26,041 nucleotides of DNA from a virus. Under the pieces are notes generated by a model. It did not search any database, was not told the DNA's origin, and saw nothing but the letters and a program-made list of their open reading frames with translations. Location: positions 1-26,041 of the IMG/VR virus record IMGVR_UViG_3300025098_000248; one strand, written 5' to 3'. Positions 313-17,000 of the stretch are shown here, piece after piece; position 1 is the first letter of the stretch, and the number at the start of each line of letters is the position of its first letter. The position numbers and the translations under genes are program-made.

Positions 313-3300
313 ATGGCTGGACAAGGCTCAGCGCGAGTTACATTGCGCGAAATAGACTTATCACAAGTAAGAAACCCACAGCAATCGCCTCAAGGTGTTC
401 CAGCTGCTGTTGTTGGTACCGCGAGAAAAGGTCCAGCCTTTGTCCCGCGAACATTTGCCAATATGCAGCAGTTTAACGAAGTCTTTGGTAGCATGCTAGA
501 AGTTGGAAAAGATTCAAATTCAAATCTTCCTGGCCCTCTCGCACTTAATGAATGGATGAAATCTGCACAAGCAGGAACATTTCTTCGTGTTCTAGGTGTT
601 GGTGATGGAACCAAAGCTATTACAGGAACAGATGATGCTTCTTTAGGAAAAGTTCCAGAATCTGGCTTTGTTGTTGGACAAGAATTAGTTCAAGCAAGAA
701 GCGGAAGTAATAGTGCAGGTAAAGTATCACAAAATCCACATGCTACTATAACAAATAGATCTAACGCATCAGCTGCAGCAAAAACTCATTTCTTAGGTTG
801 TTTTATGAAAGATGCTTCAGGTAGTTCTTTTCTACAAGATGCTGGTATTCAAACAGATCTAACTAGAGGTCTCTTAAAACTAAACTTTACAGGTATTCCT
901 ACAAATGGCACTACTCTTACTTTGATTGGAAGAGCAGCTGATTCTACTCAGAAAACTTTTGTTATTACAATTAACACAGCGGATGATCTCGTTGTACACG
1001 GTGACGGTACAATAGCATTGGGTGCACAAGACAATGATGGAGCTAACTTAGAAGCACGTCTAGTAAATGCATTACAAGGTAAAATAGCTGATGGAACTGG
1101 ACATAACTTTGACAACGCTGCACATAATCCTAATTTTTATTTTGAAACATCTCTAGTAGCAGGTGTTATAGAAGTAAGACAAAGAGAAGATGGAGTTTCT
1201 TCTAATACAGTAGCAACATCAACACTAACAGCAGCTACCGATGTTCTTACAATAGATAACGGAACTACAACTATAAAAAATAGTTTAACATCTCAAACTG
1301 TAACGTCAACACTTTCAGGAGCAACTAATTCTTCTTCTGTAGTCACAGTATCAGCTGTACCACAAGCAGATGGATTATGTAGTTTTTCAATAACAGATTC
1401 ACTAGGTATAGAAAAGCATATTAGATTAACTTTAGGAAATGATGATGGAATAACTGTAGATGGTGCATCTCAAGTAAATGGAAAAACTATTGATTTTTAT
1501 ATAGGCGTATTTACTATTCAAAATGATTTTCCTGCTATTGCTGATAAAATTGCTGCTCAGTTGCAGACAAAAGTTGCTGATAATACTTTTACAGGACTTA
1601 CTTTTACAGGTAATAACGATGGAACTTTTAGTATAGCAAACAGTTTAGAAGGTCAAGTTAACTTATTTAATGAAATTCAAGATACAGATAGTGCTATAGC
1701 AGAAACAACAGAAGTTTTAGGCAGTAATGGCTCGCTTTCTACGGTAACATTAACTTTAACGGGTCAACCTGATGTTGATAATGAATTTATTTTAAATACA
1801 GTAGAAGAGACTACTAATGTAGTAACAGATAAAACTTTTATATTTGTAGCAGAAAATGCTCAACCAGGTTCAGTAAATGGTACTGAATCTAATAGTAAAG
1901 TTCAAATTGAGTTAAATGCTAATCTTGATATTCTTTTAGCAAGAATACAAAGTGCAATTGAAGTTAGTGATGTAAAAGACAAATATACAGTTTTAGTAAA
2001 TGCAGCTGATAATACTGTAGAAATTAAAAGAACACAAGCACAAGGTTTTGTTCAAGATAGAGACTTTGTTTTTAAATTAAACAGTAATGTATCTGTTACA
2101 GGAACTGAAAATAAGACCGGTAGATTTGGGCCTCAAACAATTTCTTTTGCAGGCGGCGGTGGAGGTGCTTCACCAATTATTCGTGGTGTTTTAATGATGC
2201 CACAAGGTGTTAAACCTTCTATGCAAGTTAATAACTCTCTAGCAACTTTTAGTAAGTCTACTTCTGATACAAATCTTAGAAATTTAGAGATTCATGGAAA
2301 AACTTTTGGCAGCAATGACGCTAATAACCTTGCAGGTTATCTTGTAGGAGAAGTTGATTCTTCGCAGTCTTTTGATTTACTTCTAAATGGATTTACTAAT
2401 TTAGAAGAATCATCTGTTATTAAATGCTCTTTTGATCCAGATGATGATTCATATTTTGCAAAAGTTTTAAATACAGATCCTACAAAGATTGAAGAAAAAG
2501 GTCACTACTTGTATGCACATTGGGATATTGATTCTAATGTAGCAGTACCATCAAGTGATAATTTACTACATGCAGGAAGTTTACTTTCATCTGGCAACTA
2601 TGCTAATATGATTGGCTTTGTAATGGCAGGAGCTGGAGATGGTGCTGCAGATTTGCCTGACTATGATAGCTTTGAGCAAAGATTCCAAACTGCAAAGACT
2701 CCGTGGATTGTATCTCAATTTACAAGTGTAAGTTCTAATACAGTAGCAAGACCAGCAACAGCAGCTGCAGGTGGTGCTAAAAAGCTATTTAGACTTTATT
2801 CATTAGATGATGGTGAAGTTGGTAATACGCAATTTAGATTGTTAATTAGTGACTTAAGATATAATGGTGCTAATGATTACGGTACGTTTACTCTTTCTTT
2901 AGAGAAGTTTGACTCTGATCCTGTTAGAGGAGAGATTTTAATTTCTTGGAAGAAGGCTGACCTTAATCCTAACAGTCCTAACTTTATTGGACGTTTAATT
3001 GGTGATGAGCATACATATTATGACTTTGATTTAGATTCTGATAAGCAAAGACTCAAGACTAAAGGTTCTTATGCGCTTAAGAACAGCTATGTAAGAATCG
3101 AGCTTTCTGACGAAGTTAAACAAGGACTTATTCCTGTTGATTCTTTGCCAGCTGGTTTCCAAGGACATTCTCATCTAAGAACTTCTGGTATTACTGGTAA
3201 CTTTGTAGAACAGTCTGATTTAAACGAAAAGAGAGTATTTACAGATAGCAGTAATAGTGCACTAACAACTTTAAATAGTGCGCAAGCTTTACCTTTAGAC

Positions 3301-4686
3301 TATGTAAAGAGCATTAGTAGATTAATTGCAACATCAACTGAAGAAGCTGATTCAGATTTGGCTTGGGGTGTTAAGTTATCTGTAAGAGAAAACAAAGATT
3401 CTGATAAAAAAGAATTGGTTGAGCAAGTCTTTAATCATTCTGTTAAATCGTGGACTAAGTTCTTCCCAGAGCTAGGACAGAGTCATGCATTTGAAACTGA
3501 TGGTAATGAAGCGGATAAATTCCAAAACTCTTTCTTCTCTCTTGAAAACATTGAACTAGGAAATGCTTCATCTACTGCAGTTTGGAATGGTTCTAAATAT
3601 GTTAGAAAACCTGCTGCAGCATCAAATAGATTTGTAACAATTTCTCAAGATGCTAAGGGTGGAAACGTTAAGTACTTAAAGTTCCGTTGTTTATTCCAAG
3701 GTGGATTTGATGGTGTCAATATTTTTGATCAAGAAAAGGCAGAGCTAACAAGTGTAGCATCTGTACGTGAAGGTCAAGATGAGGCAGGAACAAAGAAGTT
3801 TACTGGTCCGACAGTCATGGCATATCGAAGAGCAGTTGATGTTTTGGCAGATAAGTCTGCTGCAGAATTCCAACTACTTTCAGTTCCAGGGCAAAGAGCT
3901 TCACAAGTTACTGATTATGCAATTGATGCATGTGAAGATCGATTTGATGCTTTATTAGTAATGGATGTTATAGAGAAAACAGCAGAAACACATCATGTCG
4001 AATCATCTAGCGAAAAACCTCATGTTAGAAATACAATTTCTTCTTTTGAAGGTCGTTCATTGGATACATCATTTGCTGCAGCTTACTTCCCTGATGTTGT
4101 AATTAGAAGACCTTCGGATAGTGCACCGGTTATTATGCCACCTTCAGTTGGTATGATGGGTGTAATGAGTCGAAACGATTCAATTGCTGATCCATGGTTT
4201 GCTCCTGCTGGTTTAAGTCGTGGTCGTTTAGGTGCAATTGATGCGAAAGTTCAAATGAATCGTGATCTTTTAGATGAGCTATATGATGCAGATATTAATC
4301 CAATTTATGTTCCAGCTGGACGTAGTGGAGAGGTTTATGCATTTGGTCAAAAGACTTTATTACAAGATGCATCTGCTTTGGATCGTATTAACGTAAGACG
4401 TTTATTAATTGACATTCGTCGTAAAGTTAAAAAAGTTGGAGAAGAGCTTTTATTTGAGCCGAATAGAGCATCAACACTCACTAAATTCTCTGCACTGGTT
4501 GAGCCTATTATGGCAAACGTGCAACAAAGAAGAGGTGTTGAAAGATATAAGGTTCAAATCGATACAACAACAACTACTCAAAACGACGTCGAAAACAATA
4601 CCATTCGTGGTAAGATTTACTTGCAACCTACAAAGAGCGTAGAATTTATTTCTTTAGACTTTGTTGTGGCAAATAACATACAATAA
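313..4686 (+). CDS. Giant tail sheath-family protein (copy 2) with large modular insert
   Basis: A 1457-aa protein, about twice the length of T4 gp18 (659 aa). Residues 1-105 match the sheath N-terminus, with GVPAAVVGTARKGPAFVP and then FLRVLGVG. Residues about 775-910 and 1125-1457 are further sheath regions: TAKTPWIV, LDDGEVGNTQFR, GGFDGVNIFD, and the C-terminal domain with LLFEPN and KSVEFISLDF. In between, residues about 186-612 form a Thr/Ser/Asn-rich insert of what look like three related beta modules, ending at a five-Gly hinge (614-618). The last 76 alignable residues share 31 identities with copy 1 (hand count, no gaps), but DETNN has become a Thr run. The start ATG at 313 follows TAGGAG. 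The protein probably joins or decorates the sheath around the tube; whether it replaces, mixes with or caps copy 1 cannot be told. Family is sure, exact role is not. Confidence 0.85.
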   Translation: MAGQGSARVTLREIDLSQVRNPQQSPQGVPAAVVGTARKGPAFVPRTFANMQQFNEVFGSMLEVGKDSNSNLPGPLALNEWMKSAQAGTFLRVLGVGDGTKAITGTDDASLGKVPESGFVVGQELVQARSGSNSAGKVSQNPHATITNRSNASAAAKTHFLGCFMKDASGSSFLQDAGIQTDLTRGLLKLNFTGIPTNGTTLTLIGRAADSTQKTFVITINTADDLVVHGDGTIALGAQDNDGANLEARLVNALQGKIADGTGHNFDNAAHNPNFYFETSLVAGVIEVRQREDGVSSNTVATSTLTAATDVLTIDNGTTTIKNSLTSQTVTSTLSGATNSSSVVTVSAVPQADGLCSFSITDSLGIEKHIRLTLGNDDGITVDGASQVNGKTIDFYIGVFTIQNDFPAIADKIAAQLQTKVADNTFTGLTFTGNNDGTFSIANSLEGQVNLFNEIQDTDSAIAETTEVLGSNGSLSTVTLTLTGQPDVDNEFILNTVEETTNVVTDKTFIFVAENAQPGSVNGTESNSKVQIELNANLDILLARIQSAIEVSDVKDKYTVLVNAADNTVEIKRTQAQGFVQDRDFVFKLNSNVSVTGTENKTGRFGPQTISFAGGGGGASPIIRGVLMMPQGVKPSMQVNNSLATFSKSTSDTNLRNLEIHGKTFGSNDANNLAGYLVGEVDSSQSFDLLLNGFTNLEESSVIKCSFDPDDDSYFAKVLNTDPTKIEEKGHYLYAHWDIDSNVAVPSSDNLLHAGSLLSSGNYANMIGFVMAGAGDGAADLPDYDSFEQRFQTAKTPWIVSQFTSVSSNTVARPATAAAGGAKKLFRLYSLDDGEVGNTQFRLLISDLRYNGANDYGTFTLSLEKFDSDPVRGEILISWKKADLNPNSPNFIGRLIGDEHTYYDFDLDSDKQRLKTKGSYALKNSYVRIELSDEVKQGLIPVDSLPAGFQGHSHLRTSGITGNFVEQSDLNEKRVFTDSSNSALTTLNSAQALPLDYVKSISRLIATSTEEADSDLAWGVKLSVRENKDSDKKELVEQVFNHSVKSWTKFFPELGQSHAFETDGNEADKFQNSFFSLENIELGNASSTAVWNGSKYVRKPAAASNRFVTISQDAKGGNVKYLKFRCLFQGGFDGVNIFDQEKAELTSVASVREGQDEAGTKKFTGPTVMAYRRAVDVLADKSAAEFQLLSVPGQRASQVTDYAIDACEDRFDALLVMDVIEKTAETHHVESSSEKPHVRNTISSFEGRSLDTSFAAAYFPDVVIRRPSDSAPVIMPPSVGMMGVMSRNDSIADPWFAPAGLSRGRLGAIDAKVQMNRDLLDELYDADINPIYVPAGRSGEVYAFGQKTLLQDASALDRINVRRLLIDIRRKVKKVGEELLFEPNRASTLTKFSALVEPIMANVQQRRGVERYKVQIDTTTTTQNDVENNTIRGKIYLQPTKSVEFISLDFVVANNIQ
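868..2148 (+). other. Three repeat-like beta modules inserted in sheath copy 2
   Basis: Residues about 186-325, 340-475 and 476-612 of the giant sheath protein share one pattern. Each has a beta-rich TLTL/SFSI-type opening, an aliphatic-aromatic strand, a helix-like segment with an A/L-rich core (for example ADKIAAQLQTKV), and a closing strand before an N/D-G turn. This resembles small beta modules repeated in structural proteins of many large phages. The insert lacks recognisable sheath motifs, and the third sheath paralog has no counterpart. A glycine run at 2152-2166 marks its downstream edge. Arginines here are mostly AGA, unlike the CGT-rich C-terminal sheath domain. Boundaries are by eye, and repeat homology is a pattern judgement rather than an alignment score. 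Confidence 0.5.
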
Positions 4687-4731: not shown

Positions 4732-5220
4732 ATGGCTGAGACACTATCAGTAACGGAGATGATACCTAATAAGTTTGAACCAAAGAGAAAAAATCGTTGG
4801 GTCTTTGCTATTGAGGGTATCGATGCTTTTCTTATGAAGACCGCAAGTCGTCCTTCATATTCTACAAACGAGACACAAGTACCTTTTATTAACAGCACAC
4901 GTTATCTTGCTGGTAAGACAACTTTTGAGACTATGTCTGTAACATTACATGATCCAATTGCACCTTCAGGTTCACAACAAGTTATGGAGTGGATCCGGAC
5001 ACATTATGAATCTGTAAGTGGTCGTGCTGGATACGCAGATTTCTACAAAAGAGATTGCCAGCTTAAATTATTAGATCCTGTTGGAACTGTTGTTGAGTTA
5101 TGGGACATTAAAGGTGCTTTCTTAACAAGTGCAAACTTTGGTGATCTTTCTTATGACGGTGATGACATGACTGAGATTTCTCTAACTATTCGTTTTGATA
5201 ACTGCGTATTACAATACTAA
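4732..5220 (+). CDS. Tail tube protein (T4 gp19-like)
   Basis: A 162-aa protein, the usual size for the T4 gp19 tail-tube family (T4: 163 aa). Family landmarks are the N-terminal NRWVFAIEGIDAFLMKTASRP, the strand around TTFETMSVTLHDP, the helix QQVMEWIRTHYE, and the C-terminal LWDIKGAFLTSANFGDLSY followed by TEISLTIRFD. The protein would stack as hexameric rings to form the inner tube through which DNA passes. AGGAG lies upstream of the ATG. The gene sits immediately after the two sheath genes, as in T4 (18-19), and is followed by a strong terminator, so it closes the sheath/tube operon. Arginine codons are mostly CGN (6 of 8), unlike the AGA-dominated genes downstream, in keeping with a very abundant product. 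Confidence in the family is high. Confidence 0.93.
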   Translation: MAETLSVTEMIPNKFEPKRKNRWVFAIEGIDAFLMKTASRPSYSTNETQVPFINSTRYLAGKTTFETMSVTLHDPIAPSGSQQVMEWIRTHYESVSGRAGYADFYKRDCQLKLLDPVGTVVELWDIKGAFLTSANFGDLSYDGDDMTEISLTIRFDNCVLQY

Positions 5221-5410: not shown

Positions 5411-8400
5411 ATGCTAGACACAAATTTTATCGATATAAGTCTTGGGAACGCAAAAGAAGATGACTCACAAGTTGTTGAACAAAGCTTGATTGCAACAACA
5501 GCAAACATTATAGGCACAGCTTATAAAGGTCCTGCTTTTGTTCCACAAAAAATATTTGCCGGTCAAACTATAGGTGATGCCCAAGTCTATAATACATTAG
5601 AAAACACACTAGGCACAGCAAGACAGAATCAATATGCTCACCTTTTCGACAACTATACTTGTCATGCTGATAGTATGGCTTATGATGCTGCTTCTTTATG
5701 GTTGAACAATGGAGGCATTTATTCTTCTTTTACAAGAGTCTTAGGCATAGGCACAGGTACTATAGATTCAAATACGGGCAAAATGTCAGGCAGTGGCTTT
5801 AATGCTGCAAATGATATTTCTAGCGGCACTCTTACACATCAAAGAGGTCCTAATCTAAATGCTGTTGCAAACGGCAAGCCTGGAAACGTTACGTTTTTAC
5901 TGAAAACTTTTGAAGAAAAAGATCTTTTAACATTTGACTACATAGATGAATTAGGAATAGATACATCAGGTAATAAGAAGCCTCATTTTATAACAGACGT
6001 TGTGTTATTTGCAAGCGGAGTTCTTCCAAGTCTAACAACTGGGTCAGTAGGGAACATTACATACTCTACAGGCTCTTCTGATTACGACACTCAGGTAAAA
6101 TCAATAGCATCAATTAGCAGTAACAATAATAACATTTTAATGTTAGGTCATAATCCTTATATTGAAAATTCAGGTTCATCAAATTTTCTAAAAACAAAAG
6201 TCTCACCCTATATAAAAGATTCTTTTGGAAATTCTAGCAATCAAATTTTAAAGCAAACAAATTACTTAGATAATAATATCAACTATTTCGCAGATAAGTT
6301 TTTAAATAGAGGACATTTAAATTACGCATCTTTTTCTTTCGCAGGTATGAGTAAAGAAGTTAAAGCAAGTCATGACTGCAAGATTTTAACAACAAAGCCT
6401 TTTAGCGAAATAAGTAACAATACAAACTTACCTGATTTTAATTCTTTTGAGAGTGAATTTACAACAGCAAAAACTCCATGGATAACAGCACAACCTTTTA
6501 ATAGAGAAGGGATTGCAAACAATAGAACAAACATACACGAAAAAGTACAGAATTTGTTCCGTTTTTGGTCTTTAGACGATGGTGAAATAGGTAATAGATT
6601 TAGAATAAAAATCAATCCTAAGCTAAGAGGCGATACTTCTGTAACAAGAAATGCATCTCCAGATGAGTATGCAACCTTTGATATTTATGTTTTCGAATAT
6701 GATCCAAGAATTAATAGTTTTGAGCAGCTTGAGTACTATGAAAACGTTAATTTAGATCCTGAAAGTAAAGATTATATTGGACGTCAAATTGGAACAGTCT
6801 ATAGCTATTATGACTTTACTTCCAAAAAAGTTATAGAAAAAGGATTATACGAAAACAAAAGTAAAGTTTTAAGAGTAGAAATAGATAATGTAATAGAATA
6901 TAAAGTCATTCAAAATCAACATGAATATATACCTTCAGGTTTTAGATCTTACCCACATATAAGTCTGAAAAAGGAATGCTTTTCTGGTTGGTATGATGAA
7001 AGTGAAACATTGTTTGATATAAACGGTGTATATCATTTGCCTCCAATGTTTGCTTTAAATTATTATACTGATACAGTCTTAGGCGAAGAAAGCAACGTTA
7101 ATAACAATTGGGGTGTTATATTTACACAACCTGTAATAAATTCAAACAAACAAACTAGATATGTTGATTCTAATGATGGGAATGAAACAAATTTAATTTC
7201 ACCTCATTTTTACTATACAAAGTATTTCTTAAATGGCTTATCTAATATTCAAAAAGACGTATGGGTAGAACAAGACAATTATCTTAACTCTTTTTTCCAT
7301 TTAGAAAAAATAAGAATTAAAACAGATGATGCTGGTAATTTTACTTTAACATATAATGAGTCTAATGCAATGCAGACATTTTACAAACATTCAGGTGCTA
7401 CACTTGCTAATAATTATGAATATTTAAATTTGAATGACAACAAAGTTTGGAAAGTAAACAATAGAGAAATAATAGCTAAATTGAAAAATAAACTTTCTTT
7501 TGATTTCTTTACATATGGTGGGTTTGATGGTGTAGACATAAGAGATTCAGACAAAAGATTTTTAAGAAATGACGCAGTTATAAGAGAGTTAAATGATGCA
7601 AATGAAACGAAGAGTACATATACTTCTTATGACAAAGCAATAGATATTGCAATGGACGAGGCAAATTGTGCTGGAGACATATTTTTAATGCCTGGGATTA
7701 AAGAAATTCCTTTAATAGATAAAGTCTTGAAGAAATGTGAAGAAGATAGAAGACATTTCTTTATTGCAGATATTGGCGGTGCTTCTTCTAACAGAGTAGT
7801 TTCTTTTGATAAAATTGAAATTGATAACAGTGGGGTTGTTTCTGCAGGTGATGCTGTTAAAAAATCAAGAGGGATTATGGGAAATTTCTTTTTTGTTAGT
7901 AATATTTTAAGTAGCTATGATTTAAACAAAAAAGAATTAGAAGACATAGATCAAAGATTTAGCTTAGGAACTAATTCAATAACAGGACAAGAGTTTTACA
8001 AATATTCAGATGTTTTAAAAAAGCAGCACGATTATGCAGTATCTACATGGAAAGGTTTAGACTTGAGAAGTAGATATATAATGCCTACTTTTGGAGACTT
8101 AATAGCTTCAAATGCTGATACTGATTTTCAAAAACAGGTAACTTCTGATAGTTTTGTTTTAGGGAAACTTGCTCAAGTAATTAGTCCTAGACAGAGTTTA
8201 TCACTTATAGATGCTTATCCTCAAATGTCAAGTGATTTAGGAGAAATAAATTATAATTTAATAAATGAAGAAGATTTATTAGAGAACAATTTAAACTTTG
8301 ATATACTTGCTAAAGATTTGAGAAATGCTGCAGTAAATATTTTATATAAGCCTAGGGACGGAAATATAAAATTATTATCAGAGAGTACATCTTACGAAAA

Positions 8401-8803
8401 CAGAAAATCAATATTTCAATTGCAGAGTATAGTAAGAACTTTACAAGAAATTAAAAAAAGACTGAGAATAGATATTTTTACTAATGACAGTTTAGTAAAT
8501 GGAGGAATATTGTTTTCTCAAAATGCTAGTTTTCAAAACATATATGCAAGATTAAAAATTCAGATAGACAATTTAATGCAGAGTTTTTTAGATGCAGGAT
8601 ATATACAAGATTATAGAGTAATGATTCCTGAAAGTACAGATCCTAAAACTGTATTAGATATGCAGAATTATATTATAAGAGGTCATATTGTTTTACAATT
8701 TGGTGACTCTGATATAATAAATTTATCGATCGACGAAGTGTTGAGCAACTTAAGTTTGTTGTCAGACACGAACCAGGATAGTGTATTAGTATTAAACGTT
8801 TAA
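5411..8803 (+). CDS. Divergent tail sheath-family protein (copy 3)
   Basis: A 1130-aa protein recognisable as a sheath paralog by motifs shared with copy 2. These are GTAYKGPAFVP (35-45), FTRVLGIGTG (107-116), TAKTPWITAQ (352-361), SLDDGEIGNRFR (387-398), DYIGRQIGTVYSYYDF (454-469) and GGFDGVDI (703-710). The C-terminus (about 1040-1110) still follows the sheath layout (ARLKIQIDN, DYRVMIPEST, IRGHIVLQF), but DETNN and the strong VEFI/DF ending are lost. It lacks the large modular insert of copy 2, having only about 230 residues between the N-terminal motif and the TAKTPW region. AGGAA precedes the ATG. Arginine codons are mostly AGA, suggesting lower expression than copies 1 and 2. It could be a minor sheath component, a first or last sheath ring, or a baseplate-contacting variant. 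Family is fairly sure, role unknown. Confidence 0.75.
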   Translation: MLDTNFIDISLGNAKEDDSQVVEQSLIATTANIIGTAYKGPAFVPQKIFAGQTIGDAQVYNTLENTLGTARQNQYAHLFDNYTCHADSMAYDAASLWLNNGGIYSSFTRVLGIGTGTIDSNTGKMSGSGFNAANDISSGTLTHQRGPNLNAVANGKPGNVTFLLKTFEEKDLLTFDYIDELGIDTSGNKKPHFITDVVLFASGVLPSLTTGSVGNITYSTGSSDYDTQVKSIASISSNNNNILMLGHNPYIENSGSSNFLKTKVSPYIKDSFGNSSNQILKQTNYLDNNINYFADKFLNRGHLNYASFSFAGMSKEVKASHDCKILTTKPFSEISNNTNLPDFNSFESEFTTAKTPWITAQPFNREGIANNRTNIHEKVQNLFRFWSLDDGEIGNRFRIKINPKLRGDTSVTRNASPDEYATFDIYVFEYDPRINSFEQLEYYENVNLDPESKDYIGRQIGTVYSYYDFTSKKVIEKGLYENKSKVLRVEIDNVIEYKVIQNQHEYIPSGFRSYPHISLKKECFSGWYDESETLFDINGVYHLPPMFALNYYTDTVLGEESNVNNNWGVIFTQPVINSNKQTRYVDSNDGNETNLISPHFYYTKYFLNGLSNIQKDVWVEQDNYLNSFFHLEKIRIKTDDAGNFTLTYNESNAMQTFYKHSGATLANNYEYLNLNDNKVWKVNNREIIAKLKNKLSFDFFTYGGFDGVDIRDSDKRFLRNDAVIRELNDANETKSTYTSYDKAIDIAMDEANCAGDIFLMPGIKEIPLIDKVLKKCEEDRRHFFIADIGGASSNRVVSFDKIEIDNSGVVSAGDAVKKSRGIMGNFFFVSNILSSYDLNKKELEDIDQRFSLGTNSITGQEFYKYSDVLKKQHDYAVSTWKGLDLRSRYIMPTFGDLIASNADTDFQKQVTSDSFVLGKLAQVISPRQSLSLIDAYPQMSSDLGEINYNLINEEDLLENNLNFDILAKDLRNAAVNILYKPRDGNIKLLSESTSYENRKSIFQLQSIVRTLQEIKKRLRIDIFTNDSLVNGGILFSQNASFQNIYARLKIQIDNLMQSFLDAGYIQDYRVMIPESTDPKTVLDMQNYIIRGHIVLQFGDSDIINLSIDEVLSNLSLLSDTNQDSVLVLNV

Positions 8804-8816
8804 GGAGAAATAATTA

Positions 8817-9665
8817 ATGAGTAATTCTTTAGATAAGCCTATTGATCATACGCAAGTTAATAGCGACGGGCCAATTAAAGTTTCAAATGTAATGAAGGAT
8901 GATTTCGGTTTTGAAATCCCGCAAGAGAGTGTCCCTTTACCTTCACGAGGGGTAATTTATACACAAGATGGGGCTCTTTACGGGCAAGAAACAATTGATA
9001 TTCGTCCAATGACTGCGAGAGAAGAAGATATTTTAACTTCTCGTGCTTACATTAAAAGCGGAACTGTTTTAACAAAACTTTTAAAATCATGTATTGTTGA
9101 TAAAAATATCAAACCTGATGATTTAATTAGTGGTGATAGAAATGCTTTGCTTGTATCACTTCGAATCACAGGATATGGTGCTGATTATGATGTTGAAGTA
9201 GATTGTCCAGAGTGTGGTACAAAAAGTAAGCAAGCATTTGATTTGTCACAGTTAAAGATTAAGAGACTAGAAGTAGATCCTGTTGTCATGGGTGATAATT
9301 TATTTGAAGTTCAATTGCCAATTACAAAGAAGACTGTAAGAGTTAAGTTTTTAACTGGTCATGATGAGCGTGAAATGATGATAACAAACGAAAGAAAGAA
9401 AAAGAGTGGAATGAAAGTTGAAACTGCAATCACAGACAGACTTTCTCGTTCAATTGTTTCAGTAGATGGAATTACTGATCGAAATAAGCTTAATTTCTTT
9501 GTCAAGAATATTCCTGCACGAGACTCTTTATCTCTTCGGAGATTTCTTGACAAGCATGAGCCAGGTATTATTATGAAGTCTTGGATGAATTGTCCTCACT
9601 GTCATGAGCAAAGTGAGGTTGGCCTTCCAATGGGCGCTTCGTTTTTTTGGCCTGACACCGAATAA
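8817..9665 (+). CDS. T4 gp26-like baseplate/tail assembly chaperone with zinc-ribbon cysteines
   Basis: A 282-aa protein of the T4 gp26-like baseplate family. Landmarks are VPLPSRGVIYTQDG (39-52), DIRPMTAREEDIL (61-73), GDRNALLVSLRITGYG (106-121), FVKNIPARDSLSLRRFLDKH (228-247), and two Cys pairs, C130-x2-C133 and C259-x2-C262, that probably bind one zinc. In T4, gp26 acts in baseplate-hub assembly; a role as chaperone for the tape measure is inferred from its place just before the tape-measure genes. AAGGAG lies nine bases before the ATG. The gene ends with codons TTT TTT TGG (FFW), PDTE and TAA. The seven-T run at 9642-9648 lies where a +1-frame ORF overlaps, so a longer fused product is likely. 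Family confidence is high; the frameshift is inferred. Confidence 0.87.
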   Translation: MSNSLDKPIDHTQVNSDGPIKVSNVMKDDFGFEIPQESVPLPSRGVIYTQDGALYGQETIDIRPMTAREEDILTSRAYIKSGTVLTKLLKSCIVDKNIKPDDLISGDRNALLVSLRITGYGADYDVEVDCPECGTKSKQAFDLSQLKIKRLEVDPVVMGDNLFEVQLPITKKTVRVKFLTGHDEREMMITNERKKKSGMKVETAITDRLSRSIVSVDGITDRNKLNFFVKNIPARDSLSLRRFLDKHEPGIIMKSWMNCPHCHEQSEVGLPMGASFFWPDTE

Positions 9666-9876
9666 TAAAGATTTATATCTTGAACAAATCTACATCTTAA
9701 TGTACCACTTAGGCTTTACTTATCAAGATGCATATAAATGCCCGGTTTGGCAACGCTTTTGGTTTATAAATAGATTTAAAAAAGAACTTGAAGATGCTAA
9801 ACAGCAGAATCAGATGGTACAATCACAATCAAAAAGAAACACAAGTGGTAGTAGAATATTTAGTAAATCATTTTAA
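9604..9876 (+). CDS. Overlapping +1-frame ORF, probably the frameshifted C-terminal extension of the gp26-like chaperone
   Basis: This 90-codon ORF starts inside the gp26-like gene, overlaps it by 62 bases, and continues about 210 bases past its stop. The first ATG (9604) has no ribosome binding site and lies in the Cys-pair region of the other frame, so independent initiation is unlikely. A +1 (or -2) shift at the seven-T run joins FF of the gp26-like protein to GLTPNNKDLYLEQIYILMYH. The extension then has LGFTYQDAYKCPVWQRFWFI and a charged Lys/Gln-rich tail. The layout resembles the G/GT tail-assembly-chaperone frameshift of other tailed phages, and also the T4 order, where gene 51 follows gene 26. 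Homology to gp51 cannot be shown by eye. The ORF is real by context and length; how it is translated is inference. Confidence 0.68.
   Translation: MSKVRLAFQWALRFFGLTPNNKDLYLEQIYILMYHLGFTYQDAYKCPVWQRFWFINRFKKELEDAKQQNQMVQSQSKRNTSGSRIFSKSF
9642..9648 (+). promoter_or_regulatory. Candidate programmed ribosomal frameshift site (seven T)
   Basis: Seven consecutive T are read as TTT TTT T|GG in the gp26-like frame, 15 bases before its stop. Skipping one T (+1), or slipping back two, enters the downstream ORF at GGC (9649). Phe tRNA can re-pair on the T run in either direction. No strong downstream stem-loop or pseudoknot was seen. Confidence 0.55.
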
Positions 9877-9917: not shown

Positions 9918-10169
9918 ATGATGACACAAAAAGAAAAACTTCTTCATAATATTGCTGCAAGATATATAATGAGTGAAGATGTAGATATTGAGTTATCTGG
10001 AAGACCTGCTGAAATGGATTGTCTTGTTTCTCTATTAGAAGTATCTAAGCGTCTTAAAATTCAATTAGATGACAATGCTTCATTTAGTGCAATTAACAAG
10101 ACACTTAAAGAAAAAAAAGACCTTACACAAAAGTTTGAAAATCTTTCAGGTATTACTTGGAGGCTCTAA
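9918..10169 (+). CDS. Small hypothetical protein between chaperone and tape-measure genes
   Basis: An 83-aa protein that I do not recognise. It is mostly charged and predicted helical, with no Cys pair, signal peptide or membrane segment. AAAAAGGATT precedes tandem ATG codons (9918 and 9921); the first is taken as the start. The stop is three bases before the first tape-measure start, and that gene's GGAGG site (about 10158) lies inside the end of this one, so the two are probably translationally coupled. Its position between the gp26-like chaperone pair and the tape measure suggests a tail-assembly or hub role (T4 has gp27/gp28 near here), but no sequence motif supports a specific function. 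A 41-base gap precedes it, with no clear promoter. Confidence 0.72.
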   Translation: MMTQKEKLLHNIAARYIMSEDVDIELSGRPAEMDCLVSLLEVSKRLKIQLDDNASFSAINKTLKEKKDLTQKFENLSGITWRL

Positions 10170-10172
10170 TAA

Positions 10173-13100
10173 ATGGAAAATACAGTTCAGATACAACTAG
10201 ATATTTCTAAAGGCCTTTTGCAAGCTTTAGATTCTATGGTAAGCGCATATGAGTCTATGAACATGACAGCAAGCCAGACAAGTGGAATGCAAAAAATGAT
10301 GCAATCTATGCAGCAGTCAGATGATTTAATGCAAACTACTACGTCTAAAGCTGGTAACATGTCAAAAGAAATATCTCAGTCAGTTTCTGAAAGTTTTTCT
10401 AAAAACTTTGAAAAACAATCAAAAGATGCTGTTTCTGCTATAAATAAAAGCTCAGATAACAATCAAAAAAGCACAAACAAACTAAATGCTTCAGCACTAA
10501 AAGATCAAAAAATATTTTCTGCTATTAAAGAAAATTCAGATAGTCTTAACAAAAGCATGAAAAGTAATAAAAGTGCAACAAAAGCTTTAGATAATGCTAT
10601 TAATAAAATGACAGACGTCGAAGATTCTCTTTACATTGCAACAAAAGGTATCGGATTTTTAGCTTCAGCAGTTGAAAAATTTAATACAATTAAAGATGGA
10701 TTTATGACGCTTGGCTTTAGCCTTTTTTATGACGTGCCTAAACTACTTTTCAATCTTCTAAAGTCAGTAGCTTCTATTGTAGGTTCAATACTAAGTTCTG
10801 CAACTAAATTTTTTATGATGACGATGTCTATTCCTTTTACGATAGCAAAATTTGCTGCAAATATAGGTAATACAATAAGGAAAGATCTTGTAGAGGTTAT
10901 ACAAGCTGCAGGTGAAGAAGCAAAAGAAAGCTTTGACTTAACATCACATATTGGTAAAGGTGCTGCTAAAATGACTCAAATGTCAAAGGGTTTACTAAAG
11001 CAGTTCAATACACCTAAGTCAAGGCTTTCAAAACTTTTTGGTATGGGAGCAGCAGGTATTGCTTCTTTTCAAAAAGAAACTTTTAGTTTAGTTGCAGGAA
11101 TGGGACATTATTCTGAGGTTTTTGGTGCTACAATTATGAAAGATTTAAAAGTAGCACAAGCTTTAATTGAGGCTCAAAGAGCAATGGGGTTAAATGCTCA
11201 GCAAATGGCTTTTTATGCACAAGAAGCTTACAATAGCGGCAAAGATCCAACATCAGTTTTAATTGATATAGCTACAAATCTTAAAAAGACAGCTAAAGGT
11301 AGTAATCTAGACTTTAAAGCCCTATCTAAAGAATTTCATGTCTTAAGAACTAATATTGTTGATTTTGGTAATTTATCATCAAATGAAATTATGGGATTAA
11401 CTGTTAAGTTAAGAAAAATGGGCGTTAAAACAGATGATGCTGTAAATGTATTTAAAAAGTTTAGTTCTCTTGAAGAAGCATCAAAAGCATCTGCAATGTT
11501 ATTTCAGTCGTTTGAAATGAATGTAGATGCTTTTGATTTACTAACTTCAAGAGACCCAGGGGAAATGCTGACACAGTTTAGAGAGGCTATGTTACAAACA
11601 GGAAAATCTTTCAAAGACTTAAACAGGCACGAAAAATCTTTAATGCAAAACATTACAGGTATCAGCGAAAATGGACTTAATTCTTTGATGAATTTTATGT
11701 CTTACGGCTTAACTTATGATGAAGCAAGAAAAAGAATGGAAGAGCAAGACCCAACAAAACAACAAACTGAAATGATGAAGGGCTTAACTTCTACTATAAA
11801 AATGGTTCAAAAAACTATGACTTTTGATTCACCCTTTACAGCTTTCTTTAGAGGTTTAACAAACAATGCTGCAAACCAAAAAGACTTGAAAAATAGTGTC
11901 ATAAGTCTAAGTAAACTATATGAAAGCTTTTATCATTTAGGTTTTAGCATGAATCTAGATGAAATAAAGTCATTTTTAGGACCTGTTACAGTTGTGCTTA
12001 CTAAGATTAGAGGTACACTGACATCTCAGAAATTTATGAGTTTACTTAAAACAACAACTAAGACTGTAGGCGGTGTGTTAGGCGATCTAGGTAATGATTT
12101 GCAAAATGATGTATCAAAGGAATATTATAAGTTTGGCTTAAAAGTTGAAAAAATGACAGAGATTGCTGGTGAAAGTGCTGAAGAAAACCTTAAAAAAGCA
12201 GAAACAGCAGCATTACAATCTTTACTTGGAACAACAAAAACAGCAAACAAAGATCTAATTAAAAACTTAAAAGAAAAAGGAATTTTAAAAGCTGGTAAAA
12301 AAGGCATGTTTAAGATCATGGATGGTCTTTCTTTGACAAAATTTTTAAGCAAGATGCAAACTATAAGCAACATGTATGATCCTAATAGTCCAATACAAAA
12401 AGAAATTGCTAAAATAAGAGAAAAAGTCGAGGAGTCTTATGATAAAAGTATTGAGTCTTTTGAAGGAAACTATATAGAAAACCTTAAAAAAGCAAACTAT
12501 CAAGCAAATGAAAGAAGTACAATAAAAGGCAGAATTGATAATCTTTATGATCAAATGAATGAACTTATAAAAGAAGGAACGCCAATGTTCAATACAATTA
12601 AAGGCATTGGCGGGAAAATCATGGGATCTATAATTAGAGGAATGATGTACGGATTTGCTGCAGGATTAAAACTGCTTTCAGGAAACTTAGAGATGGCTGT
12701 AGAATCGTTAGGAATTAATCCACAAGAAAAAGCTCTTGAAGAAGCTGCTAAAAAAGCAGGCAAGTCTGTAGATAAGCTTTCAGCTTTTGATCTTATGGGA
12801 ATATCAACTGATGATAAAAACTACATAAGTGATGAGTTAGGAAAAGAGTCTAGTAAAATGGTTCTAAATCTACCTACATTTATGAGCATGGCAGGTTCAT
12901 TCTTAAACGACTTATCAGAAGTTTTTATTCAATTTGCGGGAGGAATAGTTGGTATTATTGGTGATATGACATACAAGTATTATAAAGCATCAGGCGATAT
13001 TACAAAAGCTGCAATGATAGGAAGTGGCTTTGATCCAGAAAAAGCAGTTGCTTTAAGCGCGTTAAACAGTATTTATAAAAAGAAAGACATTGTAGGACAA

Positions 13101-14069
13101 CTCTCATCTATTAAAGGTAGTCTAGCTGAAGCTAGAGGAATAAATGAAGATGATTATGATAAAAAAGTAAGAAAAGATGACCCAGCAAAAAATAAAGTTT
13201 TATTAAGGATTTTAAAAAAATATAAAGAAAATTTTGATTCAAGAACAAGTGCTTTTAAGTTAATAGACAGTTCACAAAATATCCTTAAGGATAAAAATGT
13301 AACGAATAACAAACTTTCAAATGCAATATATCATATTATCGCAGGTGCAGAAGAGATGAATAGCTATGTACCTGCAAGTTTATTTAAAAAATATAAAGGT
13401 AACGAAGAAGCTATAAAAATATTACTAAAAAAAGACAAAAACAACGTAAACATGAAAATTGCATCTGAATCTGTGCTTAATAATCTTAAAAAAGAAACAA
13501 CTTCAAAATTCTGGATTCGCAACTTAAAAAGTTTTGGTGGCAAAGACAGAGCTAATTCAATTATTGATAATATTAACTCACATAGAGAAAGTAAAAAAGA
13601 TACAGAGCCACGCTTAATTCAAGAAATTGAAGAAAAGCTTAAAGAACTAAAGACGTCTAAGACACCTGTAGACAAAAAAGTTGCAGATTATTACGGAAAA
13701 GGAAAAGGTGCAGTATTAGCTATCGGAAATCAAAGATTACATTTGCATGATCATGATGCTGTATATGCTGCTAAAAAAGGAGGGTTTTTAAATAAAATAT
13801 ATATTGAAGTTTTTGAAACATATAATTTGTTTACGCAAGATCTTTTCTCTGTATTTAATCAACGCATTGAAGCATCAAATAAAGATCTAACAGAAGCAAA
13901 ATCAGTTATCTCTAAGTTAAAAAACAATGACATTAAAAAAGAAGATTATAACAATGAAGCTTCAGCAGAAGAAATGTTTGATATATTTAATCTATGTTTA
14001 GATGTTATCAACGAAAGTTTAAACAAAAAATCTGTATCTAGAAACGTTAAAGCTCAAATTACAGCATAA
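10173..14069 (+). CDS. Tape-measure-like tail protein 1
   Basis: A 1298-aa, helix-rich protein. Residues 1-150 are Gln/Ser/Met-rich and coiled-coil-like. Residues about 155-235 hold hydrophobic stretches (GFLASAV, LLFNLLKSVASIVGSILSSA), typical of tape-measure proteins that later help DNA enter the cell. The core (about 236-570) matches the next gene: RKDLVEVIQ, VFKKFSSLEEA, TGKSFKDLNR, GLTYDEARKRM, FDSPFTAFFRGLTNN. Near the C-terminus, LHLHDHDAVYAAKKGG (about 1188-1203) resembles a motif seen near the end of large-phage tape measures, recalled from memory. As an extended helix the chain would span roughly 195 nm (0.15 nm per residue), compared with 590 residues for T4 gp29. It would sit inside the tail tube and set tail length. 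Function rests on length, composition and gene order. Confidence 0.72.
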   Translation: MENTVQIQLDISKGLLQALDSMVSAYESMNMTASQTSGMQKMMQSMQQSDDLMQTTTSKAGNMSKEISQSVSESFSKNFEKQSKDAVSAINKSSDNNQKSTNKLNASALKDQKIFSAIKENSDSLNKSMKSNKSATKALDNAINKMTDVEDSLYIATKGIGFLASAVEKFNTIKDGFMTLGFSLFYDVPKLLFNLLKSVASIVGSILSSATKFFMMTMSIPFTIAKFAANIGNTIRKDLVEVIQAAGEEAKESFDLTSHIGKGAAKMTQMSKGLLKQFNTPKSRLSKLFGMGAAGIASFQKETFSLVAGMGHYSEVFGATIMKDLKVAQALIEAQRAMGLNAQQMAFYAQEAYNSGKDPTSVLIDIATNLKKTAKGSNLDFKALSKEFHVLRTNIVDFGNLSSNEIMGLTVKLRKMGVKTDDAVNVFKKFSSLEEASKASAMLFQSFEMNVDAFDLLTSRDPGEMLTQFREAMLQTGKSFKDLNRHEKSLMQNITGISENGLNSLMNFMSYGLTYDEARKRMEEQDPTKQQTEMMKGLTSTIKMVQKTMTFDSPFTAFFRGLTNNAANQKDLKNSVISLSKLYESFYHLGFSMNLDEIKSFLGPVTVVLTKIRGTLTSQKFMSLLKTTTKTVGGVLGDLGNDLQNDVSKEYYKFGLKVEKMTEIAGESAEENLKKAETAALQSLLGTTKTANKDLIKNLKEKGILKAGKKGMFKIMDGLSLTKFLSKMQTISNMYDPNSPIQKEIAKIREKVEESYDKSIESFEGNYIENLKKANYQANERSTIKGRIDNLYDQMNELIKEGTPMFNTIKGIGGKIMGSIIRGMMYGFAAGLKLLSGNLEMAVESLGINPQEKALEEAAKKAGKSVDKLSAFDLMGISTDDKNYISDELGKESSKMVLNLPTFMSMAGSFLNDLSEVFIQFAGGIVGIIGDMTYKYYKASGDITKAAMIGSGFDPEKAVALSALNSIYKKKDIVGQLSSIKGSLAEARGINEDDYDKKVRKDDPAKNKVLLRILKKYKENFDSRTSAFKLIDSSQNILKDKNVTNNKLSNAIYHIIAGAEEMNSYVPASLFKKYKGNEEAIKILLKKDKNNVNMKIASESVLNNLKKETTSKFWIRNLKSFGGKDRANSIIDNINSHRESKKDTEPRLIQEIEEKLKELKTSKTPVDKKVADYYGKGKGAVLAIGNQRLHLHDHDAVYAAKKGGFLNKIYIEVFETYNLFTQDLFSVFNQRIEASNKDLTEAKSVISKLKNNDIKKEDYNNEASAEEMFDIFNLCLDVINESLNKKSVSRNVKAQITA

Positions 14070-14079
14070 GGAGATATAA

Positions 14080-17000
14080 ATGGCAGATACTAACGATCCA
14101 AATCAAGCGTCACAAGAATCAGAAGGAAATGCTGGATCTGGACAAATTAATATTGCCAGAGAGTTAAATTCTGTTTTAGAGCAAGTTTCTGCTAGACTAG
14201 AAAAAATACAGAAGCTTACGCAAACACAAGCAGACTTTATGACTCAAATGACTCAAAGTTTTACAGATATGCAAGAAAACATGGAATCAATGACAGGCAA
14301 TGCACAAGAAATGTCCACATCATTTCAAGATGCTGCTGAGTCTGTAATGGATCAATTTAGCAAAGAAAAGCTTGAAACAATAGATAACAGTGTTAAAAAA
14401 ATATCTGATGCCTATAAAGATGCTTCTGATGTTCAAAAAGAAACACTTCAAAATGCAAGTAAAACTGTGTCAAGCATGGGTAGTGTTACAAAATCTATAA
14501 GTGAAGACATGAAAAGAGATACTAATGCACTTAATAAGGCATTAATGAGAAACAGCAAAAGTTTTAATAATTTTGGTAACAACTCAAAAAACATAAACGA
14601 GCAAGTAAAAGAGTTTGTTGGGTCAATAGTCGAATTAAAAAATCAAATTGTCGGGATTGTTTTTTCATTAGGACAGAAAATTAAGTCTGCAATGTCTATG
14701 GGATTTACTTTAGTTAAAGGAGTAGCTTCATTTGTAGGTAGTATGATAGGTGCAGCAGCAAAATTTGGAAAATTTGCACTAACTGTCCCATTTACAATTA
14801 CAAAAGCAGCTGTAAATATAGGAAACACGTTAAGAAGAGACATTGTAGAAGTTATTCAAACAGCACAAGAAGCCTTAAAAGATAAATTTGATATGGATTC
14901 AACTATCGGTGAAGGTATAAAGTCGATGACAAACAAAGGAAAAGGAATGCTTCTTTCATTTCAAAATCCTTCTTCAGAGCTTGTTAAATTGTTTGGCTTC
15001 GGAGCAAACGGTATTGCTTCCATGATTGGATTTTTAGGTGAGAATATAGAAGCAATGGGACATTTTTCTGAAATGTTTGGACGAAGCTTAGGTAATAACT
15101 TGCCAAAATTTAAAGCATTTTCTAGAATGGTAAAGGGTTTTGGTTTTTCATCTGAAGATGTTGCTTACCTTGCACAAGATGCTGCTGTGAATCTTAAAGA
15201 TATAAATGTAAGAATGGCAGAACTAGGTGTAACATTAACAAGTACTGCCAAAGAATTTGGTTTAGACAGGAAAAGATTGTCTAAAAACTTTATGGTTCTT
15301 AGAAAAGACATAACTCAATTTGGACATTTGTCAGATGAAGAAATAGGAAGGACAACTGCAAGACTTACACAAATGAAAGTTAAGCTTGAAGATGCGTCTG
15401 CTGTATTTAAAAAGTTTAGTACGTTTGAAGATGCAGCAAATTCTGTTGCAATGCTATCCCAGACTTTTGGAATGAATCTAGATGCAATGGATATAATACA
15501 GGCAAAAAAACCTGAAGATGTTATTGAAATGTTTAGAACTTCTATGTTAGAAACTGGGAGATCTTTTGAGGATTTAAATAGATTTGAGAAAGATCTAATG
15601 GCACAACACACAGGCATGTCTGCTGAAAGTCTGAAAGGGCTTATGCATTATAGAGATATTGGTTTGACTTATGAGCAAGCAAGAAAAAGAATGGAGTCAG
15701 AAAATCCAACATCAAAACAAATGAAAGCGTTAAAAGGTCTTAACAGCGCAATTAAAGAGGTTCAAAAAGTTATGAATTTTGATTCTCCATTTCAAGCATT
15801 TGTTAAAGGTTTAACTAACAATATAGCACTTTCAGGTGACTTAAAAGGAACTTTGACTAGTTTAAGTAGTGGATATCAATCTATTTATCAATACGCATTG
15901 AAAATGGATCCTAGCACTTGGAGTGGCTTAATTAAACCTATAAAGCTTATTATCGATATTATGAGCAATATTTTAAAAAGTGATGCATTTAAAGGAGGTT
16001 TAGTTTCAGCAATGTCAACAATGGCAGATTTTGCTGCAGAAATGTTTGGTGCAACAAAAGGTGATGTTATTCTTTCAAAACTAGAAACTAATGTATCTAT
16101 AGCAATGCAAAAAGGCGGAAAGTTTTACGGCAAAAAAGGAAAACAAAGAATAGAAGCATTTAAAAATTTATTACTCGATGGACTAGCAAAAGAAGCAAGT
16201 CTTAATAAATTAGTTGATATGGAAGCATTGAAAAAAATAAAAGACCCAAGAAAACTTATTCAAGAGATAAACAAGTATAAACAAAGTGTTAATCCTAAAA
16301 ATCAAGCTAGAATCGATATATTTGATGACTATTTAGAAAGATCGACAAACGAAATTTTTAAGAAGTTTGACAAAGATGATGAAAAATCAGAGGAAAAGAA
16401 GAAAGGCAAGAAATTATCAGCTTCTACAAAAACAAAAGCTAATCGTCTCTCTGAAGGTCTTCTTGATATCATGAAGGCAAATAAAGATAATATGGGCAAA
16501 CTTGCAACATTAAGTCTAAGAATTGCAGGGGCTGTTATTAAGTCTGCTGCAATAGGATTTACAGCACTTCTAAAAGTTATTAATAACGGTATGAGCGAGT
16601 TAGACAAGTCAGGTGCTTTAAATAGCGATACTAACATGATTGAAGACTTTTTGCATTTTAAGCCAGGTGAATTTGCTGAACTTGGAAGTTCAATTGGGGA
16701 TGCATTTAAAGAGTTTTGGGAGAAAAAACAAAATGCCTTTAGCATAACAGGCTGGATTATTGATGGTATATCTGATGCTTTTAGTTTTGTCATTGGAACT
16801 TTTGTAGATACTATAAAAAGTGGAATTAACGAAATACTAGGGAAAGAAGTATTTGAAAAGTCTAGTTCTTCTATATTAAGAGAATCAAGGAAGAAAAAAT
16901 TTGAAGATTCTAAAGGTACAATGAGTTACGGAACTAAAGCCGTAGAAAGCATGGCAGATAAAGCAAAAAACACAAATGTTAGTGATGCTATAAGCGGTGA

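Follow-up and report, generated by a model that had tools for sequence, protein, structure and literature searches.

Does the gp26-like gene of a contractile-tailed phage, which ends inside an open frame displaced by +1, encode one protein or two? We addressed this question in the IMG/VR virus record IMGVR_UViG_3300025098_000248 (26,041 nt, positions 1-26,041; this whole stretch is called the window below), which carries the tail region of such a phage. An earlier note on the window had proposed that a programmed frameshift fuses the gp26-like protein to the downstream frame, as in the G/GT tail-assembly chaperones of other tailed phages. Our analysis demonstrates that two products, G and a predicted GT, are encoded and that the shift site and the T region are under selection. 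We consider it very probable (about 0.88) that the gp26-like gene encodes the G member of a pair of tail-assembly chaperones, with GT made by a programmed +1 shift; the shifting, its efficiency and the chaperone function are inferred.

The gp26-like gene and the overlapping frame

G (8817-9665, plus strand) is a protein of 282 aa with two zinc-ribbon-like CxxC pairs. It matches PF12322 (T4_baseplate; 1.5e-21) with 77.5 bits, above the curated cut-off of 24.5, as well as phrog_150 (baseplate hub; 3.6e-25). Its C-terminal end, ...GASFFWPDTE, is encoded by TCG TTT TTT TGG CCT GAC ACC GAA, followed by the TAA stop codon at 9663-9665. The slip region TTT TTT TGG CCT (9642-9653, plus strand) includes seven T's at 9642-9648. 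When read in the +1 frame, the same bases give ...TTT TTT GGC CTG ACA CCG AAT..., with GGC at 9649, and the frame stays open to 9873 (stop codon at 9874-9876). The resulting extension T (GLTPNNKDLYLEQIYILMYHLGFTYQDAYKCPVWQRFWFINRFKKE..., 9649-9876, plus strand) comprises 75 aa after the shift and is open and conserved in all complete relatives. In the predicted fusion GT (8817-9876, plus strand; 352 aa), 8817-9647 is joined to 9649-9873 with base 9648 skipped, and reading with one four-base step produces the junction ...ASFF-GLTPNN....

Only three unshifted start codons lie ahead of the T domain in the window, namely ATG 9604, GTG 9613 and TTG 9619. All are inside gp26, and none of them has a good ribosome binding site. 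The first (9604-9606, plus strand), which opens the mechanically defined +1 ORF, is not preceded by a Shine-Dalgarno sequence and is absent in most relatives. The claims of the earlier note about the seven-T run, the overlapping frame continuing for about 70 codons (exactly 70 beyond the gp26 stop) and the lack of its own ribosome binding site were thus confirmed, except that the run is separated from the stop codon by 14 bases, not 15.

The consensus of T is GLTPxDKExYLEQIFxLMYYMGFSYxEAYNxPVWxRxWFIxRLNxE, the product beginning with GL[TSN]. An AlphaFold2 model of GT has a pLDDT of 84, in which the T part is helical but of low confidence because the alignment used separate G and T rows instead of fused relatives.

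The position of the locus meets a criterion of G/GT systems, which lie between the tail tube and tape-measure genes. The tail tube gene (4732-5220, plus strand; phrog_4542, 3.1e-29) is followed by a sheath-like gene, G-T, an ORF of 83 aa without a convincing family (9918-10169, plus strand), and two tape-measure-like genes (10173-14069 and 14080-18243, both plus strand). The gene order is equal in SP-15, immuto, LIS04 and Mel-JY01. The products of the last two genes are probably tape measure proteins, judged by size and position; no family match was found for the first in Pfam-type and PHROG profile searches. These two proteins are tandem paralogues, with 32% identity over 878 columns (E 1e-116). 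Two large sheath-like paralogues with 27% identity, encoded at 313-4686 (1457 aa) and 5411-8803 (1130 aa), flank the tube gene, and the first of them has the C-terminal sheath domain PF17482.

Conservation of the slip site and proposed mechanism of a +1 shift

We scanned viral contigs with the gp26-like protein and obtained 80 loci with 58-100% protein identity. The removal of duplicates and truncated ends left 59 non-redundant loci, 56 of which are complete for counting start codons. All 59 keep the motif TTY TTT TGG CCT in frame, 18-24 bases upstream of the gp26 stop, together with an open +1 frame. The overlap, the slip site and the open +1 frame are not a matter of chance. This result supports the proposal of a programmed frameshift and confirms the guess in the earlier note that the slip site might be conserved with the FFWP ending.

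The second codon of the motif is TTT in 59/59 loci, as against 319 TTT and 176 TTC (36% TTC) elsewhere in the same genes. The corresponding log10 P of about -14 assumes independent loci and can only serve as a guide, since the loci are related. The bias persists in the 13 loci with more than 50% GC, where this codon is TTT in 13/13 against 84 TTC and 39 TTT elsewhere (68% TTC). The first codon is TTC in 10 of these 13. Because codon 1 varies and codon 2 is fixed as TTT, codon 2 is singled out as the most likely slip codon. A scan for synonymous conservation over the whole gene placed its top five codons, P279, T281, D280, E267 and F277, within the last 16. Dual coding accounts for most of the conservation of TGG CCT GAC: where a base change would be silent in gp26, it would alter GLT in the +1 reading. 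Differences at codon positions 1, 2 and 3 of the +1 region (0.38/0.23/0.61) have the periodicity of coding sequence, and the slip site is exactly where the conserved GL[TS]P of T starts.

Alternatively, T could be an ordinary separate gene, started inside gp26 at ATG 9604 or by re-initiation after the stop codon, with the overlap reflecting compact packing. The ATG in the window could in principle start T alone. Nevertheless, 31 of the 56 complete loci have no ATG, GTG or TTG from the last upstream +1 stop to residue 13 of T, so T cannot be expressed there as a separate gene by normal initiation. One such relative (L041, 3757-3850) lacks all three in the +1 frame over the whole stretch between the upstream stop and a point about 70 bases beyond the slip site. 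The immuto-type relatives, in which the inferred +1 shift falls at TTT_Y in 57/57 loci, also lack a start codon before the T core in 13/57. A separate gene would explain neither the slip codon fixed against codon usage nor the start of GL[TS]P exactly at the slip site. We consider this alternative highly improbable, and the programmed shift remains the preferred reading.

Is the seven-T run itself the functional element? The earlier note had suggested checking whether the run and the overlapping ORF recur among homologues. The +1 ORF recurs, but the run is intact in only 47/59 loci; the other 12 read TTCTTTTGG (TTCTTTT, with four T's). Among immuto-type loci the run is broken in 31/57 (TTTCTTTGG, TTTCTATGG, TTTCTTTAC), including TTTCTTT and TTTCTAT, with the same +1 arrangement. 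We therefore rejected the seven-T run as the functional element, as these variants break the run yet keep the +1 layout.

The same variants bear on two further explanations, both of which we rejected. In transcriptional slippage, the run of T's would give mixed mRNAs read by unshifted ribosomes. An intact run, as found in the window and 47 relatives, favours this model, but it requires a long run, while the broken runs in 12/59 window-type and 31/57 immuto-type loci accompany an unchanged +1 layout, leaving it with very little plausibility. Mu uses a -2 shift, and such a shift would lead to the same frame with one extra Phe at the junction (ASFFFGLTP instead of ASFFGLTP). However, a -2 shift on TTC TTT or TTT CTT mispairs tRNA-Phe or tRNA-Leu, whereas a +1 shift on UUU_Y pairs fully, and the -2 shift is also most unlikely.

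The element that accounts for the +1 shift is, very probably, UUU_Y decoded by tRNA-Phe, as inferred from sequence alone. In the window, the slip codon would most likely be TTT at 9645-9647, followed by T9648, with tRNA-Phe moving from UUU to UUU. A +1 slip from UUU to UUU or UUC fits every +1 member found, namely the window type, the immuto type (57/57), Mel-JY01, SagM-GXN1, SP-15, BRock and LIS04. In PMC10885494, UUU is named in the group of codons that rank next in slipperiness behind CUU. In the proposed mechanism, most ribosomes would terminate at 9663 and release G of 282 aa. In a minority, with tRNA-Phe on UUU (9645-9647) in the P site and UGG in the A site, the tRNA would slip by +1 onto UUU (9646-9648), and these ribosomes would continue in the +1 frame to produce GT of 352 aa. 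Whereas the conserved slip sites are shown by sequence, the actual shifting at low frequency and its efficiency are inferred, without expression, ribosome-profiling or mass-spectrometry data.

What could stimulate the shift is less clear. No downstream RNA stimulator or structure was found by RNAalifold. A Shine-Dalgarno-like GAGGT (9615-9619, plus strand) is located 23-27 bases before slip codon 1 in 58/59 relatives, and its role is unknown. Its Glu codon is almost invariably GAG and belongs to the most conserved synonymous sites of the gene. The element, GAGGT or GGAGGT in window-type loci (L002-L081), could conceivably be a new frameshift stimulator. Similar elements occur near -30 in about 38/57 immuto-type loci and at about -15 in 35/59 loci of the cyano type described below. 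The latter spacing is close to that of dnaX; to our knowledge, no stimulator fits the long spacing (23-27 bases) of the +1 groups.

T domains in other lineages and in T4

A T-like domain in the +1 frame was also found in Microcystis phage Mel-JY01, immuto, SagM-GXN1, LIS04, SP-15 and BRock. A search of IMG/VR with the SP-15 query matched only SP-15 itself, and a scan of distant genomes with the single protein yielded one metagenomic bin only.

Elsewhere the domain is in the -1 frame. In the T4-like cyanophage S-PM2, gp26 is followed by a 57-aa "gp51" and then by a gene of tape-measure size. Its gp26 ends with TCT TTT TTC GCA TAA, which contains the classical U_UUU_UUC, with "gp51" encoded in the -1 frame. 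The predicted S-PM2 junction peptide ISMFYNNLENYYR would begin upstream of the annotated gp51 ATG, so only a fusion could yield it. All 59 non-redundant cyano-type relatives retain both the U_UUU_UUC heptamer and the domain in the -1 frame, and 13 have no start codon. Several cultured T4-like and jumbo phages share this arrangement; a -1 frame with a T-run slip site is also present in Aeh1, phage 65, phiAS5, S13, VmeM-32, pf16, ACP17, phi-pp2 (KVP40 group), Bhz51, Asswx_1, RHph_I1_9, Atu_ph07 and RaK2. Aeh1 reads GAT TTT TTC GAC TGA; its -1 frame stays open over the 37 bases preceding the stop and the 170 bases following it, and the first part of this frame lacks a start codon. In the Ackermannviridae VP-1 and Kevin, the -1 frame also encodes the domain, with weaker slip sites. 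In this branch (cyanophages, Aeh1, KVP40-like phages, RaK2), the same two products would be made by tandem -1 slippage at U_UUU_UUC.

At the slip run, near 2220 of its locus, Stenotrophomonas phage IME-SM1 has GAT TTT TCG, one T fewer than GAT TTT TTC in its relative Bhz51, and the annotated gp26 runs on out of frame. Whether this is a sequencing error or a real indel is undecided.

These lineages include the exceptions that could have refuted the frameshift, as the earlier note had named homologues with a clearly separate downstream gene as evidence against it. The separate-gene alternative draws support from LR756511, a 595-kb uncultured phage with its own T-like ORF, whose ATG lies just after the gp26 stop (about 3769 of the locus), and no slip site. 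An ATG that overlaps the gp26 stop or closely follows it is also present in VP-1 (a TAATG overlap), RHph_I1_9, phi-pp2, Bhz51 and many cyanophages. On the other side, no start codon precedes the core in Aeh1, phage 65, phiAS5, S13, Asswx_1 and RaK2, nor in the 13 cyano-type loci mentioned above. This absence of start codons at many loci is shown and leaves a programmed shift as the better account. LR756511 might represent a natural loss of, or an alternative to, frameshifting.

How are these pairs related to gp26 and gp51 of T4? PF12322 covers T4 gp26 (8.8e-64) and residues 1-201 of T4 gp51 (3.9e-52). After this domain, gp51 has 48 further residues and gp26 has none. These C-terminal 48 aa match cyanophage T (hhalign 96.6%, 5e-10), which in turn matches the window T (E 5.8e-5; 2e-5 for S-PM2 gp51 alone), and the window T matches immuto T (97%, 3e-11). 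Direct profile comparison of the window T with T4 gp51 was not significant, and the link therefore rests on the cyanophage T as an intermediate. A model of a T4-like gp51 (pLDDT 84) has gp26 of Aeromonas phage 25 as its structural match (E 4e-10). The gp51 architecture is shown; that the T domain equals the C terminus of T4 gp51 is likely, as inferred through the cyanophage T. We likewise infer from sequence alone that in T4 gp26 probably is G and gp51 is GT in one frame, without a shift product. The same two products would then come from two paralogous genes. The tie between gp26/gp51 and the chaperone system drawn in the earlier note thus held, except that the two T4 genes do not form one overlapping pair; its model also required refinement to UUU_Y instead of seven T's, a -1 shift at U_UUU_UUC elsewhere, and a separate in-frame gp51 as the GT of T4.

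This architecture bears on earlier annotations. According to Sullivan 2010 (PMC3037559), the first ~200 aa are absent from cyanophage gp51, and Aeh1 alone was without gp51. Frameshifting would account for both the "truncated" and the "missing" gp51, with gp26 supplying the first 200 aa.

What would the fusion do? We read it as a chaperone because the gene lies directly before the paralogous tape-measure-like genes, the design is that of lambda G/GT, and PMC3004832 classes T4 gp26 and gp51 as chaperones of hub assembly, with gp51 absent from the final particle. On the model of lambda, the tape measure protein would be coated and held by many copies of G and a few of GT, and the T tail would recruit tail tube or initiator subunits, for which there are no interaction data. 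Tape-measure chaperoning and recruitment are thus both inferred. The fusion could instead be made but serve as a structural or plug-like part of the baseplate. PF12322 proteins are annotated as baseplate hub, genetic evidence cited in PMC3004832 places gp26 in the hub, and the plug protein Alg6 of eCIS is a small hub part required for assembly (PMC8894135). Against this possibility, the T profile has no meaningful match in the PDB, neither gp26 nor gp51 occurs in any solved structure of the T4 baseplate or tail, and the gene is positioned directly before the tape-measure-like genes. A PDB search did not find gp26 or gp51 (two gp26 matches were zinc-finger chance matches); for gp27 it returned seven entries, among them the full baseplate 5iv5 and the portal-neck-tail 9mkb. 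We regard a structural role as unlikely and retain the chaperone reading.

T as an eCIS plug (Afp6/Alg6) was rejected for the lack of a meaningful PDB match. Similarity of T to PF20546 (DUF6760) is weak: the window T scores 18.7 bits, below the curated cut-off of 27, and 31/41 relatives match at up to 0.1, with 1.1e-5 at best. A search for a bacterial DUF6760/eCIS context in 380 genomes from a single phylum, with 14 controls, returned nothing.

Tail chaperones made by frameshifting are well known in themselves; the present case would have wide implications for T4-like phages. In the open-access literature searched, which leaves out most subscription papers, we found neither an account of frameshifting in gp26/gp51 nor a G/GT pair named for T4-like phages. 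T4 is the textbook assembly pathway, yet gp26 and gp51 are listed as hub chaperones without a mechanism. A bolder reading, which we think likely, is that the whole T4-like myophage superfamily uses a PF12322 G/GT pair for the tail or hub, that ancestral frameshifting switched between +1 (UUU_Y) and -1 (U_UUU_UUC), and that T4 replaced it by duplication, with gp26 as G and gp51 as GT. If true, one rule of a short form and a T-tailed form would span lambda-type and T4-type tails, the short cyanophage gp51 and the missing Aeh1 gp51 would be explained, and missed frameshift fusions would be predicted in hundreds of sequenced myophages. It would also provide a natural case of one site switching among +1 shifting, -1 shifting and gene duplication, and the role of gp26/gp51 would become directly testable.

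Comparison with known systems

The closest design is found in lambda gpG/gpGT and the siphophage, Mu and P2-type chaperones (Xu, Hendrix and Duda 2004; PMC5009743), which have the same position between tail tube and tape-measure genes and the same arrangement, in which a long first ORF is followed by a short one that lies in a different frame and is accessed through programmed shifting. The criterion of a second ORF overlapping in another frame and reached at a conserved slip site is met here, and in both cases the slip site differs between lineages. Unlike in the lambda type, G belongs to PF12322, is zinc-ribbon-like and has a length of about 240-290 aa, and the inferred shift is +1 on UUU_Y by tRNA-Phe. 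Foldseek against the PDB gave no match at E <= 0.001, the HK97 chaperone 2ob9 being at rank 40 (E 5.3, prob 0.14). The G/GT analogy of the earlier note therefore held by position and anatomy, while homology to lambda gpG was not shown. A functional resemblance to the lambda system is possible; membership of the lambda gpG/HK97 protein family is not supported by homology in sequence or fold.

T4 gp26 and gp51 are both PF12322 proteins like the window G, and gp51 likely carries the T domain as its C-terminal 48 aa. They differ in being separate genes on opposite strands, with the GT form in one frame and no slip. Cyanophage gp26 and short "gp51" (S-PM2 and others) resemble the window in having these G and T domains one after the other, ahead of a gene of tape-measure size, but T is in the -1 frame at U_UUU_UUC and is annotated as a separate truncated gene.

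With regard to the slip itself, the CUU_UGA site of E. coli RF2 (prfB) is alike in the P-site +1 slip on YUU_U with an A-site codon beginning with UG, and the immuto form CUU_UGG resembles it. Here the A-site codon is the sense codon UGG, not a stop, and the Shine-Dalgarno-like element is 23-27 bases upstream instead of 3. The haloarchaeal virus HSTV-2 (PMC5009743) is likewise a myovirus with, very likely, a +1 shift in its tail chaperone.
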